Source of the DNA: Antedon mediterranea
Lineage: Eukaryota > Echinodermata > Crinoidea > Comatulida > Antedonidae
DNA: 64,000 bases
Assembly (NCBI RefSeq): GCF_964355755.1
Contig: NC_092673.1
Coordinates: 4,593,001 to 4,657,000, forward strand
Direction of reading: 5' to 3'
The notes beneath the pieces are model-generated. The model made no database searches. It saw only the letters and a list, made by a program, of their open reading frames with translations, and was not told where the DNA came from. Of this stretch, positions 4,088-64,000 are shown piece after piece (the first letter of the stretch is position 1; each line of letters starts with the position of its first letter). The translations under genes and the position numbers were made by a program.

Positions 4088-12740
<8,653 letters not shown>

Positions 12741-18155: not shown

Positions 18156-21100
18156 ATGGCGGAAGATAATTCAAATCGCAAGAGAAGGGTGTGTATAGCA
18201 ACATGCAACCGCGCTGATTACTCTAAGCTCGCTCCAATAATGAGCGCTGTACAGAAAGATCCCGAGCTTGTACTAAGCGTCATCGTCCTAGGATGCCATC
18301 TTATTGATGATTATGGGTATAATTTATTTTATTACTTTTTTTAAAGTGTTATTACTGTTTAAGGTACTTTAGATACTATACCTTATGATTTGCTGTTCTT
18401 CATGTATTCAAGTATGTTAGCCGAATCTTGCTACTGTTCTGTATCTATAATTTGTGCAATATCACAGGCAGGCCCTTGATACAGTGTTACATGTATAACA
18501 TATGATGCCTGTATCATTTGCCATAAGCCATTACATAATACATGAAACATGTGACACTGTTATACAGAATTTGCCTGTGATACTGGCATTACTGTATATG
18601 TGGCAATACAGTTTTAGATAGGGTGTTTATATACTGTTGACAACCTTTAATTACTGTAAATTAATCCATAAATGACAAGCACTCTAAATATATTATGATG
18701 CTTTGTTCTACCTTTTTTTACACAGAAAATCCATTATCTATTTCGCACATTTCATCTTCAAGGCACGCATTAATTTATATTCACATATTTTGATATTATG
18801 ATGAGCTATATGCTATTTGTTATTACTATAGTTACTGCATTAAAAGTGGCTAAAGACACACTGAAGCATGCATTATGTGGTAGTTAGACGACAAGACATA
18901 CAGTATTTAAAGTAGTCTTTGTGTTGTATAATTTACCATTCACACCTTGAGAAACACCATTAAAATTGTTTTAAATGGTTATATTTTATATCCAACAAAG
19001 TGATTATTGCACCATTAACATAATACGCCATTAGCATAATCATTATCATCATCATTTTCATCTTCGTTACCATCAGTATTTATTTCTTTTAACAGTTCCA
19101 CCTATAGGCTTATAGAACAAGATGGCTTCCCAGTAGATGCAAAGTTGCATACAATCGTGAGAGGAGAAGATGAGGCAGCTATGGTAGAATCTGTAGGCTT
19201 AGCACTCGTCAAACTTCCAGACGTTCTACTACGTGTCAAGCCGGATGTACTGATCGTTCACGGTGACCGATTCGATGCCCTATCCCTATCAACCGCTGCA
19301 GCGCTAATGAATATACGCATCATGCACGTAGAGGGCGGCGAAGTGAGTGGAACAATCGATGACAGTATTCGTCATGCCGTTTCTAAACTTGCTCACTATC
19401 ATGCCTGCTGCACGGAGCGTGCTCAGAGTCGACTCCTCACAATGTGCGAAGACAATGAACGTATCTTATTAACAGGCTGTCCGTCTTACGATAAACTTTT
19501 AAGCGCTGATTTGAACACTCCAGATGATATAATAGCTAAGTGGATTGCTCCGGGAACTAAATCAAAGGAATATGTGATAGCATTGCAACATCCAGTAACG
19601 ACGAACATCCAAGAATCTCTCAAGATGTTTGGCTTTATGCTTGAAGCATTAGACCAATTAGGTGCCATGACACTTATACTATTTCCAAATATTGATGCAG
19701 GTAAGAATGTATAATATTTTTTTTTTTTCAAATAACTACAGTACTAACATGCTTACCTCACATTTAAATAAAATGGTTAAAACAGGGGCGCCACCATATA
19801 ATCGGTTCTGAACTCCCTTCAACCATTGTTGTAGAACAAGTCTTGGAAAAGGAGGTCCAGTGTTACAACCCAGTGCAGAAAGAGTAGGGGGTTATCCCGA
19901 TGTACTAGGCCATCAACCCCTGTCTTTCGTAGTAGACATTTCACTGTGGCTGCCGTGTGTTCGTAGACAACTTAATCTACTGTAAATGGCTTCATTATGA
20001 AGATGTTAACAAATATGTCAAATGTGTAAACTAATTTGACAATATTCTCTCCAAACTGTCAACCAATATGTATATATTTACAACAGTTAGTTGGCATACT
20101 TTTAAAAATAATTTATAATACTATTTCTAGAAAATTGTTATTGAATTGTAATTGTATTAAACTACTGTGGAGTAGCTTTGCGTCAGGAAGTTGAGTAATT
20201 GGTCAGATGTTTTGCCCTACCCTGTTATTGAATTGTTGTACTGTACAATAACTATTAGAGATATTTTAAAGAGATATGGTAGATTGTACACAGTTACTAT
20301 CTAACCAGCATATTCTTATAAAAAACATGACCAACAGCATTATACTAAATTTTGAAACTCCCAGTTGTAATGCTCTGTTTTTTCTTAGTCCTTGCCACGT
20401 CATGTAGTTCTTATGGGATCACCAGACCATAGTGTGTACCACCCAGTTTAATCCCCCAAACACAAAGCCTCTTTATTGCCCTTCAATCAACACCCACACT
20501 GACCTTTGATCTTACTCTGTTGTCCCTAACATCATCCAAGCATACAGTACTGTCATCAGTAATGTACTGGGTTATCCTATCTCAAATGATGATGTATTTC
20601 GTACGTAATACACCAGTGGTTTTATTTGTCTCAAATATTGTTTTTTTCTAAAATTATCCCACTCACTGTTAAGAAATATAATATTTTCGAACAAATTATT
20701 AAATTTTGTTGTATATTATGTACAAAGTAATATTACAAACATTTCAAATCAACAGATGTAAATAAGAATAAAACAAAAATACAGTATAGTGTAATAAAAA
20801 AAACCTTGCCACCTGTCTACAGTATTCAAAATATAGATAAAATGTTATTATGTTGTACTGTATTAGACAGATTTAACGCTAAACCACTAATCCGTACATT
20901 GAGGTTTGATGGATTTAACTTTAAACTCAAGGTCTAAACCATAGAGTTGATTTCTAAAAGTAAACCAATTGCATTATGTAGCCAATACAACCTCAGTTTA
21001 GTCTCTTTACAAAAGGGGCGGATTAAAAAAACATTGTACATGTTTAAAAAGCATTGCAGTGAATTGAAGACTATTTGTTAATAATGAGAGTTAGTCCTTG

Positions 21101-27100: not shown

Positions 27101-28641
27101 GCATTCTTTAAAATCATTTGTCACATTTTGTAATAATATTTGACAAATGTGATGTGTCCAAATATGGTAGTGATACGACATCATCATGTCCATATATGGG
27201 CACATCACATTTGGGAACATAAAGTTTGATAGTGTAGACAGACTTATTTATTTTAAAGTACCTACCATCTATCGAGTACTTTGGTACATAAGCGGTTCTT
27301 AGCAGGAAATTACCCTAGTTGTAGATCTTATCAGTGTAGAGACCAAAAGAGTCGACACTAATATTAATTTTGCGTAAGTATTTATGCATAATTAACAGGT
27401 GTTGAGGAAGAACTCATTTATATTTGTCATCTTTTGCAGGAATTGGTGGCGGTATTATACTTGATAATAAACTCATACATGGCAACAATTTCTGTGCGGC
27501 TGAACTTGGACATATCAAGGTATCTCTGGATGGTCCTAAATGTCTGTGTGGTAGTACTGGTTGTGCAGAGGCGTATTCGTCTGGTGCTGCCCTCCAGAGG
27601 GAGGCTGTCAAGCTTAATGAAGGTGCGTAGTTATAATTGTACTTCAAAATTTCATTAGCATATAGTATACACATTTTTTGAAGTTGAAATAGAACAGACT
27701 GTCAATGAAAATATTCTCTTCCTTTTTGGTGTCCAGTTTTTTTTAAGCTAAAGTAATCTTATCTTTTGCAGCTGGTGAGCTATTTATTAATGGTTACAAG
27801 AATGAAGGCAACCAACAAATCAGTGCGAAACATCTTATGGAGGCTGCAGAACATGGTAATCAGAAGGCACAGGCTGTCATAGATCTAGGTAAAGTATTAG
27901 CTGTTCATCTTATACACCATAGCAAAGAGAGTAACACAATGACGACATATTTATATAGATGCCACTGTATTACACCTGAGCTCGATATTCACCCATTGTA
28001 AACTAGTATTTTGCTAGTAGATGAAACTTGTATGTGCAATATCTGGTCCACTGTGCTTTGGTTACCATAAAGCCCTGCATACACTAACAATTTGTGAGCT
28101 ACAGCCTTTGAACCACTGACTTCCAACACCTGTCCATTTCTCTGGGATCCATCAGCAAACGTTAAGGTTACAATCTCTGCAAACTTTGGAAACTGCAGAA
28201 ATAATGTGCTGTCTACACTGTCAAACAAGTTTGACAAAAAAAGTGTGATGTGCCCAAATATGATAGTGATAAGACATCATCGTGTCCATATATGGGCACA
28301 TCACATTTTGTTGTCACATAAGGTTTGATAGTGGAGACAGAGCTTAAGCGCAATCAATTATCCATCAATTAGTTATTGTAATAATCATTATGTTATGTTC
28401 TTTAGCTGCCAAGGCAATGGGCTATGCTGTCACCAGTATGTTGCACGTCCTCAATCCGTCTCTTGTCATTCTTTGTGGAATATTTGCGCCATTATACGTC
28501 AATGAAGTGCGTAGGATGGTGGATGAAGATGCCCTGCGGTCAGCTAGAAATGTTCAAATTAGGGCGTCAGAACTTGTTGAACCTGCCTTGCTTGGAGCTG
28601 CTAGTATTGTATTAGAATATGCAACAAGACGAACATATTAG
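18156..28641 (+). CDS. GNE: Bifunctional UDP-GlcNAc 2-epimerase / ManNAc kinase
   Basis: Exons: 18090-18316 (start Met at 18156), 19096-19700, 23012-23224, 23610-23697, 24281-24491, 25801-25930, 26481-26549, 26940-27092, 27440-27622, 27772-27888, 28406-28641. All junctions are GT/AG with matching phases, giving 721 residues (human short form 722). It makes ManNAc from UDP-GlcNAc and phosphorylates it, the first two steps of sialic acid synthesis in the cytosol. Epimerase half: [78 protein letters not shown]. Kinase half: [12 protein letters not shown] (about 410-421), [16 protein letters not shown] with catalytic Asp at 516, GTGIGGGI, and the zinc-site pattern GH...CLCGSTGC (His568, Cys578, Cys580, Cys585). 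Arg262 and Arg265 (RVMR) match human Arg263/Arg266, where mutation abolishes CMP-sialic acid feedback, so feedback control is probably retained. It ends [17 protein letters not shown]. Confidence 0.97.
18460..18582. mobile_element. Short palindromic MITE in a GNE intron
   Basis: The left arm TATCACAGGCA..ACAGTGTTACATGT and right arm ACATGTGACACTGT..TGCCTGTGATA are inverted repeats. The outermost TA pairs could be a TA duplication. It is 123 bp with no coding content. Confidence 0.55.
19701..23011. other. 3.3-kb GNE intron; mostly unannotated AT-rich sequence
   Basis: It contains SINE-like fragments: GGGGGTTATCCCGATGTACT at 19890-19910 matches the SINE body, and a fragment of the second tRNA-like family lies at about 20190-20225. 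Short open frames at 21541 and 21859 (minus) have no recognisable domains. No exon-like sequence fits the GNE reading frame. Confidence 0.5.
24957..25093. mobile_element. MITE-A copy, two core units
   Basis: It starts AAGCTCTGTCTACACTATCA, then GACAAACAAATGTGATGTGC, and has two core units (TATCACTACCATATTTAAGCA and TATCACTACTATATTTAGACA). The right arm TTTTGTCACTAGTTTGA is eroded. It lies in a GNE intron. Confidence 0.75.
25619..25777. mobile_element. MITE-A copy, two core units
   Basis: It starts AACTCTGTCTACACTATCAA, has two core units (TATCATTACCATATTTGATTG, TATCACTACCATATTTGGGCA), and ends CAAACTAGTATGATGTAGAG. It lies 23 bp before the acceptor of the GNE exon at 25801. Confidence 0.75.
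27138..27243. mobile_element. MITE-A copy, left end lost
   Basis: It contains TTTGACAAATGTGATGTGTC, CAAATATGGTAGTGATACGA, CCATATATGGGCACATCACA and GTTTGATAGTGTAGACAGAC. It lies 45 bp after the donor of the GNE exon 26940-27092. Confidence 0.75.
28013..28067. repeat. ~50-bp module shared with 30520-30572
   Basis: It reads TTGCTAGTAGATGAAACTTG, then TATGTGCAATATCTGGTCCA and CTGTGCTTTG. The same module with a few changes lies at 30524-30576, in both cases immediately before MITE-A terminal sequence. Its origin is unknown. Confidence 0.7.
28070..28344 (-). mobile_element. MITE-A composite carrying a captured V-ATPase B exon (Pack-MITE-like)
   Basis: From left on the plus strand: a MITE-A-like end AAGCCCTGCATACACTAACA at 28070, antisense V-ATPase B exon 3 (28095-28192) with its AG acceptor, about 10 bp of adjoining intron-like sequence, then a MITE-A body from GTGCTGTCTACACTGTCAAA to AGTGGAGACAGAGCT. 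TA lies on each side (28068-28069 and 28345-28346). The host site is the last GNE intron. Interpretation as capture of a host exon by the element is inference; the sequence parts and order are seen directly. Confidence 0.75.
28095..28192 (-). pseudogene. Antisense copy of V-ATPase B exon 3
   Basis: Read on the minus strand it matches exon 3 of the V-ATPase B gene (5348-5446) over 98 bp with three base differences, each changing a residue (Leu to Phe, Ser to Asn, Val to Ala). It retains a pyrimidine-rich acceptor ending TTATTTCTGCAG, similar to the donor locus TTATTTTCTTCAG, so the source was genomic DNA, not a spliced transcript. The 5' splice donor is lost. An 82-residue open frame (28237 down to 27989) runs through it, but without the rest of the enzyme it cannot make a working subunit. 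Confidence 0.9.
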
Positions 28642-30520
28642 ATAGAAATGTATTACCATACTGACCGTTATAAAGCTCTGTCTACACAATCAAACTTTGT
28701 GACAACAAGAATTGATGTGCCCATATATGGACACGATGGTGTCATATCACTACCATATTTGTCACATCAAGTTTGATAGTGTAGACAGAGTTTAGTCTAC
28801 CACCCTCAAATATCAAGTAATCTTTATAACCCAATAAATTTTGGCTTTCCATATAAGCCCACCGCAAGTTAAATGGGCTTATGCTTGAGTCAGTTCATTG
28901 TACAATTCAAGTTAAATTGTTTTTATACAGTGAACTTCACAGTTACACACAGTGTAACATGGGACCAAAAAAACAGTAAATTTGAGTTAAGGTATATGGA
29001 AAAAAGATAGACCTATATGAAAATGAATATTTATATTAAAAAATAAGTGTTATACATAACACATCCTTTTAAATTTTTCAATTTGTTTATTTAATTTAAA
29101 TCAAATAACGGACACATAGAAGAAGAATAAAGAAAATATATTATTATTTCTCAAAAAATTATATATATATATATTTAGTGTGTGTAGAATCTGAATTTTT
29201 CAATTCTTGCTAAATATGGGATTAGTATTATTAGAAATAGTATTAATTACAATTATGATCAGGTATAAGGATTCGCCTTGCTTTACCTTTATGACCAAAT
29301 AAGAACTTTTATTTGTCAGCCTTTATCAAAACTTCTTTATAGAATTACTTAATATATATTATGCTTTATAATAATTTACCTAAAATTATATTTTTGAATT
29401 ATTAAAGTATACCTGAAAGTAGATTTTAATTTGCATATAGTAGTTAGCAGCTGATCAAATATGACACTTATTAAAGTTGATTTAAAATAAAAGATGCATG
29501 AATTAATGTACAAATTATCTAAGTTATTAAAGAAAATGTAATGATACTGCCCGTTGATTGCTCTCATATACTGCCGAAAATTGCACTCAATTAAACGCGA
29601 AATAACATTGTGATGTTTTTCAAACTCAGTATTATAGGTTTATAGAATCAATATCCAGTAACAAAATATCAGGACAAGAATTTCAATAGTAAAGGTTTTA
29701 TTCTCAATAATTCATAGATAATAGATAATTTTGTGGATAAAATTGTGTTTAGTTTGTCCTGATTATTTTTTGCAACTATAATTAACTGTATACAGAATTG
29801 AAAAATATTATTTATACAATATACAGTGGATATTATAAGATTTTATTTTTTACTAAATTAATCAAATTAAGCTGATATTTTTGTGGATTTGAGATGAATA
29901 ATAACTGAGACCAGGTTTAATTTGATAATCTTCAAATTTGTAAATAAATTATGTATTTGTATGATCCTCTTTAAATCATAAAGTAGAGGTGATGGGTATT
30001 TTCCTGTATGAAAATTATGAATTTATAAATATATATTTTGTTTGTTTTATTTTGTTGCTTTCTGTGTACAAAAAATGCGGTTAATGATATATTTTATTCT
30101 ACCAAAGTATATTTTGGTACTGTACTGTATACGTATTATTTTACAGTGGCAGTATTAACAAAAATACTACTAGATAACTGCTTAAATTTAATGATGCTGC
30201 ATTTGTATTGAGATGGATCCTAGCTATCCTTCTTTGAGTAGCAAATTGCCTTTATAACTCCGATGACATTCCATATTTCAAATTTCAAAAACAAATATCT
30301 TTATTATTTTTAAGTTATACGTATTATTAGATCAGCTTCTAGTGGTTAATATATATTTTGATTTTCTTTTTCGATAAATAAAAAAATTCAAAATGTTATT
30401 TAATAATTTTCTTGTTATTTATGATTACCATACATAAATTTAATATTGAATATTTGATACAATTTTAGTACATTTCTCAAATGTTTTTAATTGTATGGCT
30501 CTAACTCTTACTATCAAACT
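28642..30520. other. GNE 3' flank and convergent intergenic region
   Basis: It holds a MITE-A copy just past the stop codon, a polyadenylation signal AATAAA at 28833-28838, a TA dinucleotide run near 29160 and very AT-rich sequence. Nothing codes. Confidence 0.5.
28673..28792. mobile_element. MITE-A copy in the GNE 3' untranslated region
   Basis: Complete: AAGCTCTGTCTACACAATCA to GTTTGATAGTGTAGACAGAG then TT, with TA at 28671-28672 and 28793-28794. It begins 31 bp after the GNE stop and before the first AATAAA (28833), so it is probably transcribed into the mRNA as a hairpin. Confidence 0.8.
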
Positions 30521-30572
30521 AGTTTTTGCTACTAGATGAAAGTTGTTGTATGTGCAATGTCTGGTCCACTGC

Positions 30573-30710
30573 GCTTTGTCTATGAAACTAGTTTGACAAA
30601 ACAAGTTAGATGTGCCCAAATATGGTACTGATATGACATCATCATGTCCATATATGGGCACATTACATTTTTTTTTTGTCACAAAAAGTTTTATAGTGTA
30701 GACAGAGCTT
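30573..30710. mobile_element. MITE-A copy beside the 28013-type module
   Basis: It begins GCTTTGTCTATGAAACTAGT, has CAAATATGGTACTGATATGA and CCATATATGGGCACATTACA, and ends TATAGTGTAGACAGAGCTT with TA at 30711-30712. The preceding 50 bp (30520-30572) match 28013-28067. Confidence 0.75.
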
Positions 30711-33202: not shown

Positions 33203-60237
<27,035 letters not shown>

Positions 60238-62214: not shown

Positions 62215-63120
62215 ATGTGACATGCGCAAGAATGTTACCTTAACATATTTTTGGAAAATTTTCCCGAAAAATGACCAAATTTCGACTTTTTTATTTTTCA
62301 ACATAAAGTGGTCCCATGACAATATAAGATGATGATATGGTACTGTACATGCACATATAGCAATGTGCATATTGGATTTCAAAAAGGTCGAAATTTGGTA
62401 CAGGGATTTTCCTGAAAAATGACCAAATTTTGGCCTTTTTATTTTTTGACATAAAGTGGTCCCATGATACTTAAGATGATGATAGGATACTACACGTGCA
62501 CATTTAGCAATATTAGTGCAAATAAATTGGATTTTAAAAAGGTCGAAATTTTGGTGATTTTGCAAGAAATCCCTGTAGGCCTACTATAGTACAAGAATTT
62601 TCTAAAAAAATTACCATATTTTGACCTTTTTATTTTTCGACATAAAGTGGTCCCATAATACTATAAGATGCACATATTATAGCAATTAGTGCATATTAAT
62701 TGGATTTCAAAAAAGGTCAAAATTTGGGTGATTTTGAAAAAAATCACTGTACTATATAGTACAGGAATTTTCCCGAAAAAATGATCAAATTCCGACCTTT
62801 TTATTTTTCAGCATAAAGTGGTTCCATAATACTATAAGATGATGATAGGGTACTGTACGTGCACATATAGCAATTAGTGCATAGTAATTGGATTTCAAAA
62901 AGGTCGAAATTTTGGTGATTTTGCAAAAAATCCCTGTATATAGTACAGGAATTTTCGAGAAAAATGACCAAACTTCAACCTTTTTATTTTTCAGCATAAA
63001 GTGGTCCCATAATACTTTAAGATGATGATAGGGTACTATACGTGCGCATATAGCAATATTAGTGCATATTAATTGGATTTTAAAAAGGTTGAAATTTGGG
63101 TGATTATGCAAAAAATCCCT
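62215..63120. repeat. Tandem array, ~175-185-bp unit, about five copies
   Basis: Units share TTTTTATTTTTCGACATAAA, GTGGTCCCATAATACTATAA, GATGATGATAGGGTACTGTA, TTGGATTTCAAAAAGGTCGA and AATCCCTGTACTATATAGTA. Unit landmarks lie at 62287, 62437, 62623, 62798 and 62980. Apparent open frames on the minus strand are products of the repeat. Confidence 0.85.
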
Positions 63121-63126
63121 GTACTA

Positions 63127-64000
63127 TTTCCAAGTAGTTCCGAGTAGTGACGAGTTCCGAGTATTGCCGAGTAGTTCCAAGAAGTTGCGAAAAGTTCCGA
63201 GTATTTCCAAGTATTTCCGAGTAGTTCCGATTAGTTCCGATTAGCTCCGATTAGTTGCGAGTAGTTCTGAGAAATTAAGAGTAGTGACGAGTAATTCCGA
63301 AAAGTTCCGATTAGTTCCGAATAATTCCGAATAATTCCGAGTAGTGACGAGAAGTTCCGAGTACCGTAATTCCGAGTAGTTCCGAGCAGTTTTGAGTAGT
63401 TCCGAGAAGTTCCGAGAAGTCCCAAATAATCCTGAGTTGTCCCGAGTAGTCCCGAGTAGTTCCGAGTAGTTCCGAGTAGTTCTGAGTAGTTCCGAGAAGT
63501 TCCGAGTAATTCCGAGTAGTTCCGAGTTGTCCTGTGTAGTTCCGAGTAGTTCCGAGTTGTTCCGAGTAGTTCCGAGTAGTTCCGAGTATTTCCGAGAAGT
63601 TCCGAGAAGTCCCGAGTAGTCCCAAGTAGTCCCTAGTAGTTCCGAGAAGTTCCGAGAAGTCCCAAATAATCCTGAGTTGTCCCGAGTAGTCCCGAGTAGT
63701 TCCGAGTAGTTCCGAGTAGTTCTGAGTAGTTCCGAGAAGTTCCGAGTAATTCCGAGTAGTTCCGAGTTGTCCTGTGTAGTTCCGAGTAGTTCCGAGTTGT
63801 TCCGAGTAGTTCCGAGTAGTTCCGAGTATTTCCGAGAAGTTCCGAGAAGTCCCGAGTAGTCCCAAGTAGTCCCGAGTAGTTCCGAGTAGTTCCGAGTAGT
63901 TCTGAGTAATTCCGAGTAGTTCCGAGTAGTCCCGTGTAGTTCCGAGTAGTTCCGAGAAGTTCCGAATAGTTCCGAGTTGTTCCGAGTAGTGGCGAGAAGT
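63127..64000. repeat. 10-bp satellite with 240-bp higher-order repeat, cut by window end
   Basis: The basic unit is GAGTAGTTCC with variants (GAGAAGTTCC, GAGTAGTCCC, GAGTTGTCCC). From 63419 and again from 63659 the same order of variants occurs (starting GTCCCAAATAATCCTGAGTT), so 24 units form a 240-bp higher-order unit. The 5' part (63127-63400) is more diverged. The array continues beyond the window. Confidence 0.95.

Follow-up and report, generated by a model that had tools for sequence, protein, structure and literature searches.

An intron of a gene that we take to be animal GNE carries an antisense copy of exon 3 of the V-ATPase B gene, set between two pieces of a single repeat family, MITE-A. 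Donor and copy both lie within the 64,000-nucleotide stretch of Antedon mediterranea DNA that was analyzed (the window). With a probability of about 0.58, we read the copy as patch DNA produced by template switching during repair at a MITE-A end, not as transposon cargo. Such patching in place is favored because both edges are flush, letters are shared at the junctions, the donor is on the same chromosome, the copy is single, and a second composite is found close by.

The donor exon spans 5348-5446 on the forward strand (99 nt, 33 codons, frame 0). Its peptide matches V-ATPase subunit B chains in a phmmer search (E 9e-11) as well as the model TIGR01040 (E 1.2e-10). Just downstream, on the same strand, is the MITE-A remnant that the original prediction had placed 20 bp from the exon, at 5466; it was recovered at 5468-5553 by blastn and at 5452-5553 by profile, with its outer end retained and its exon-facing end unrecognizable. 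Also in this part of the window, a stretch of ~426 bp downstream of the exon (5900-6325) is 98.6% identical to a place ~39 kb to its left.

The copy occupies 28095-28201 on the reverse strand, 22.6 kb from the donor, and comprises exon 3 together with 9 bp of acceptor sequence, the 5' splice site being lost. The matching block (5339-5445 with 28095-28201, inverted) is 107 nt long at 96% identity, and its E value of 6e-43 rules out chance. A 98-bp antisense match with three mismatches and a likeness of the splice-acceptor sequence had both been predicted; the count of 3/98 was reproduced, and the block indeed takes in part of the donor acceptor tract. Over the whole exon (5348-5446 against 28094-28192, reverse strand), 4/99 positions differ. 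These fall at codon positions 1, 2, 2 and 3, and all four alter the amino acid. Because the last two lie within the final five exon bases, which may already be junction sequence, the copy proper is counted as having 2/94 differences. A DNA search of the whole genome (354 Mb) with 5300-5466 as the query returned two places, the donor and the copy in the GNE intron. Divergence is greater in the copied acceptor tract than in the copied exon part (3/17 by hand count vs. 2/95; p 0.024), which makes the age of the copy uncertain. The copied exon is probably inert filler without function. An assembly or haplotype artefact is very improbable, given the 4/99 differences from the donor, the opposite orientation, and the intronic position within a 36-Mb contig.

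The host gene contains a UDP-GlcNAc 2-epimerase exon at 19145-19711 that matches TIGR03568 with an E value of 5.5e-55 and 186.7 bits, under the model cut-off of 235.9. The exon that follows the intron (28408-28638) gave no convincing match in a family search, and the presumed identity as GNE is based on the TIGR03568 exon and the original prediction. Elsewhere in the window, an ORF at 1409-1870 (153 aa) presumably resembles the GIY-YIG end of Penelope-like retroelements, and a long array of 10-bp tandem units extends over 63061-63865, where the minus strand contains a 184-codon ORF (63311-63865).

The 140-bp MITE-A consensus folds end to end as a palindrome; it starts with AGCTCTGTC and ends with GACAGAGCT. 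It is short, palindromic, present in many copies and set in a TA-rich target flank, as expected of a MITE. A regex scan for end pairs detected just 13 left ends and 10 right ends; a profile search, used in its place, returned 73 matches that merged to 54 elements in the 264 kb around the finding. Genome-wide, there were 3515 first-look candidates. Twenty other copies were aligned and the consensus was built from 19, excluding the copy in the GNE intron and a segmental duplicate (L016, with the flanks of L013). In some MITE-A elements, an inner 21-bp unit is tandemly expanded, as at 49793-50044 and on contig C4 ~81.8-81.6 kb left of the window start.

The family is mostly flanked by TAA or TTA. 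TWA occurred on both sides in 25/40 elements, a count from which 2/23 local full-length elements were dropped (one end with <15/22 match), and the two flanks were identical in 17 of these 25, against ~13 expected from the margins. Since identical flanks are not clearly commoner than expected, we assigned no superfamily to MITE-A. The genome contains Harbinger-type transposases (at least 150 DDE_Tnp_4 matches); in four DDE_Tnp_4 loci that were cut out, the best matches to MITE-A ends were 13-15/22, the same as in random MITE-free stretches.

To the left of the exon copy, 28068-28096 is a decayed MITE-A end fragment of ~28 bp on the forward strand that begins with TAA. It scores 15-16 against the MITE end, and 15 was attained by only 1/5000 shuffles. 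When the window was scanned every 10 positions, all other stretches scoring that high coincided with MITE-A elements. The MITE-A-like end that had been noted here is therefore real. To the right, 28205-28344 on the forward strand is a palindromic MITE-A of 140 bp. Previously described as a MITE-A body with a right end, it does have that right end (21/22 match to the family end), and it is more than a body, being a complete element with both ends. TAA is found at 28068-28070, at 28202-28204 on the inner edge of the right-hand MITE, and at 28345-28347, so that the TA predicted on both outer sides is present. The fragment differs from the left end of the right-hand MITE at 7/20 positions and from its right end at 5/20. 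The alternative of two independent MITE insertions, each with its own TA duplication, thus agrees with the sequence in that the parts are different copies, 7/20 apart, and departs from it in that a full TAA pair frames only the right one.

The degree of decay differs among the three parts. The left fragment is off the family consensus at 4/20 positions and is more decayed than the exon copy, whether the latter is counted as 2/94 (p 0.009) or 3/95 (p 0.017). The right-hand MITE is off the consensus at 11/140; the aligned copies behind the consensus were chosen for likeness to this MITE, which biases their own closeness to the consensus. Three of the changes in the right-hand MITE fall within the 7 bp that adjoin the exon copy, against 8/133 in the remainder (p 0.011). 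This damage to the exon-facing end is not unique, because 1/20 of the other aligned copies also has three changes in its first 8 bp. Comparison of 11/140 with the exon gives p 0.05 (2/94) or 0.11 (3/95), and p 0.14 or 0.25 without the first 7 bp of the MITE. Dating by MITE decay is thus suggestive only. An order of old fragment, right-hand MITE and exon copy agrees with the decay of 4/20, 11/140 and 2/94, with a weak middle step, for which p ranges from 0.05 to 0.25 depending on the positions chosen.

Both edges of the exon copy are flush with MITE-A sequence and nothing is left over, which bears out its predicted position between MITE-A parts. Given how common MITE-A is locally (54 elements in 264 kb), the chance of a single flush edge is ~0.4%. 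At the right junction, donor and MITE consensus have TAAAG in common, and an identity of at least 5 bp was seen at 0.7% of random breakpoints; the five letters are those of the family consensus, and the copy itself now reads TAATG. At the left junction the common letters are TGA, with at least 3 bp at 5.9% of random breakpoints. The likely switch point in the donor is its acceptor tract (5336-5347, forward strand), the reverse complement of which continues into TAAAG (5333-5337), the same letters as in the MITE-A end (TAA followed by AG).

The exon copy and the right-hand MITE could also stem from independent events. If exon 3 had been duplicated into the intron by a segmental or templated event, the right-hand MITE-A could have inserted later by ordinary transposition, using a TTA within the acceptor sequence that had been copied. 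The donor reads TTA at exactly that point, the right-hand MITE is complete with TAA on both sides, and when this MITE was cut out in silico, the aligner carried the donor match across the site. That extension is no better than in controls, though: 104/400 shuffles and 32/600 random stretches scored as high, and with stiffer gap costs so did 287/600 and 258/600 controls. We therefore rejected a continuation of donor homology beyond the right-hand MITE, since shuffled and random sequences extend as far, and the MITE seems to mark the end of the copy. Under two separate events, the MITE would have had to land by chance within a few base pairs of the end of the copied stretch. Because flush edges on both sides are improbable for unrelated events, we rank this explanation lower and regard it as unlikely.

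Transposition of the exon itself was the core of the original prediction, according to which a MITE captured exon 3 and carried it into the intron. This is not supported. The right-hand MITE forms a whole element by itself and is framed by TAA, no further copy of either composite was found in genome searches with the exon query and with the second filler described below, and the left end, changed at 4/20 against 2/94 or 3/95 in the exon, looks unfit as the working end of a recently moved unit. A more specific form of transposition is a Pack-TYPE composite or end bypass, in which a transposase would have acted on the outer ends of MITE-A copies flanking donor exon 3 and moved the block into the GNE intron as one element, the donor allele having been restored or derived from another haplotype. 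Its main attraction is the donor MITE end at 5536-5557, which resembles the left fragment most closely (19/22) among 98 other sampled MITE-A-end-like sequences, a sample that includes many weak matches and counts identical end sequences once. Fragment and donor end both have GGGC, found in 3/99 rows, and also agree in three bases past the end. Furthermore, the outer flanks are TAA and TAA, and the 3/7 changes at the exon-facing end of the right-hand MITE suit the plant model, which needs deletion or mutation of inner ends (PMC8903248).

Other observations count against such a composite. The fragment differs from the donor end at 3/19 positions and lacks the inner part of the MITE, whereas the exon differs at only 2/94, and derivation of the fragment from the donor MITE was rejected as the main explanation and retained as a rival because, despite the best sampled end, it needs an uneven mutation rate. 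The common TGG lies outside the element, and transposition should not carry it along. The damaged inner end is no special feature, with 1/20 other copies in a similar state. A MITE inserted 10 bp before the acceptor of exon 3 would be expected to harm the donor gene. The genome search gave one copy only, and a good left terminal repeat would have been needed at the time of the jump, yet decay has gone further in the fragment than in the exon copy. In a Pack-TYPE element that transposes as a unit, both outer terminal repeats should be conserved; here the right one matches at 21/22 and the left one is changed at 4/20. Overall, we hold movement as a composite to be rather doubtful.

Support for repair patching comes from a second locus of the same build, 2.2 kb away at 30498-30710, which also consists of an end fragment, a filler and a MITE. 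A self-comparison of the 264 kb gave 38 low-copy pairs, including the exon pair and a pair involving a different sequence of the GNE intron, X, at 28000-28060 (forward strand). Its second copy, at 30516-30578 on the same strand, is the filler of the second composite. The two copies of X (61-63 bp, 87.5% identity) were the only places found in a genome search, and either may be the source of the other. The filler is preceded by a MITE-A end fragment (30498-30525, forward strand), and its start at 30516, AAACTAGT, is common to the MITE arm. It is followed by a near-complete MITE-A at 30574-30709 (forward strand), whose own left end is degenerate (12/22). Recurrence of the arrangement with another local filler suits repair patching better than a single odd transposition.

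The flanks of MITE-A elements were surveyed for similar arrangements. A MITE-end-like piece was present in 8/108 flanks, against 1/324 controls. The eight include the two composites, two pieces nearly continuous with the adjoining element, and one piece ~155 bp away; three, with gaps of ~30 bp, we read as long variants of single elements. Low-copy duplicates beside MITE-A were not enriched, occurring in 9/108 flanks, three of which stem from the present finding, whereas 30 control sets averaged 16.1 (s.d. 3.1). General enrichment next to MITE-A was therefore rejected, the number being lower than the control mean, and this speaks against a strong general effect. Two other inverted pairs were observed: 9417-9576 and 48430-48589 in the window (160 nt, 94% alike), which perhaps represent another repeat family, and 4562956-4563585 and 4565141-4565770 on contig C4 (630 bp, 100% identical, ~1.6 kb apart).

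How repair patching could have produced the arrangement can be outlined as follows. The GNE intron would already have contained MITE-A sequence, and a break or stalled fork may have occurred at the left end of the right-hand MITE. The patch would then have been copied from V-ATPase B exon 3, 22.6 kb off. Synthesis probably left the MITE fragment at the 3-bp match TGA, proceeded backwards through the exon into the acceptor tract, and may have returned to the MITE at the TAAAG that it has in common with the donor. The composite resembles a Pack-TIR, although no move is required to explain it. In this scheme, the break, the way in which synthesis ran and the sequence of events are inferred. As the copy includes intron sequence from the acceptor, a spliced RNA template is excluded, and an unspliced one could have served.

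Some features are not readily accommodated by repair patching. The right-hand MITE is complete, so its first ~28 bp stand twice. Simple gap filling within a single MITE would leave complementary pieces on the two sides, which these are not. A break just outside the right-hand MITE, between an old fragment and a younger MITE, would explain its completeness. The right breakpoint is at a MITE terminus, and the donor is beyond the <15 kb class of published cases. In another reading, which we consider improbable, MITE-A copies act as repair partners of each other. The broken MITE in the GNE intron would have invaded the MITE beside exon 3, and synthesis would have exited the donor MITE into the exon and back, taking the outer end of the donor MITE and skipping the hairpin, so that the exon was copied. 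The second composite, filled with flanking sequence of the GNE MITE, would have arisen by the same process. If this were true, repeated palindromes would be a general local engine that copies neighboring exons into nearby introns.

The locus is a seemingly young animal case in which host exon sequence was duplicated into a different gene next to a DNA transposon and in which donor, copy and junctions can all be read. It argues that exon shuffling of this type can arise from repair at MITEs, not transposition, and the second composite, 2.2 kb off, is a place to test recurrence. No general rule is changed, since the process is already in print.

In the plant Pack-TYPE model, a block moves after its inner ends are deleted or mutated (PMC8903248). 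The present case is similar in having coding DNA between two neighboring insertions of the same family with damaged inner ends. Unlike in plants, the block bears no sign of movement or multiplication and its left outer end is decayed (PMC8903248). Among animals, Turmoil-1 transduplication in C. elegans likewise associates host coding fragments with a DNA transposon, but those fragments are inside the inverted terminal repeats of the element (PMC2572040). Human class 2 templated sequence insertions, which have been argued to be RNA-templated, are also short copies of distant sequence with microhomology and without a target duplication of their own; in contrast to the present case, the passages of that source used here do not tie them to a DNA transposon (PMC5110952).

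The closest counterparts are the Pack-TIRs of animals. Events of this type had been called rarely described in animals, a statement that is out of date, as 370 Pack-TIRs were reported from 100 animal genomes, or ~2 per 10,000 TIR elements (Tan et al., 2021; PMC8277862). Single-copy animal Pack-TIRs were mostly attributed to transposition-independent gap filling, the donors of which show a same-chromosome bias with near donors favored (56.9% under 15 kb), and breakpoint microhomology, present in 67.6% of the animal cases with a median of 2 bp, is not required (PMC8277862). The present case deviates from them in that the right TE part is complete and the left part belongs to a different copy (7/20 and 5/20 off), where gap filling calls for parts of one interrupted element. 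The right breakpoint is at the terminus, where published breakpoints tend toward the element interior (PMC8277862). The case would also fail the strict list, as a MITE, the remnant at 5452-5553, lies less than 100 bp from the parent; the filter for TEs at this distance guards against segmental duplication (PMC8277862). On the other hand, the filler of 107 bp exceeds the 100 bp used to define Pack-TIRs and is located between TIR parts that each cover at least 10 bp of the terminus (PMC8277862). The parent is unique and, at 96% by BLAST, above the 90% identity of the published definition, which was scored by BLAT, and TAAAG and TGA, identified against the MITE consensus, provide the microhomology (PMC8277862). 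With a single copy, short identity at the breakpoints, a non-TE filler whose unique parent lies on the same chromosome, and ends from one TIR family, the exon copy in the GNE intron resembles the single-copy Pack-TIRs of animals (PMC8277862).
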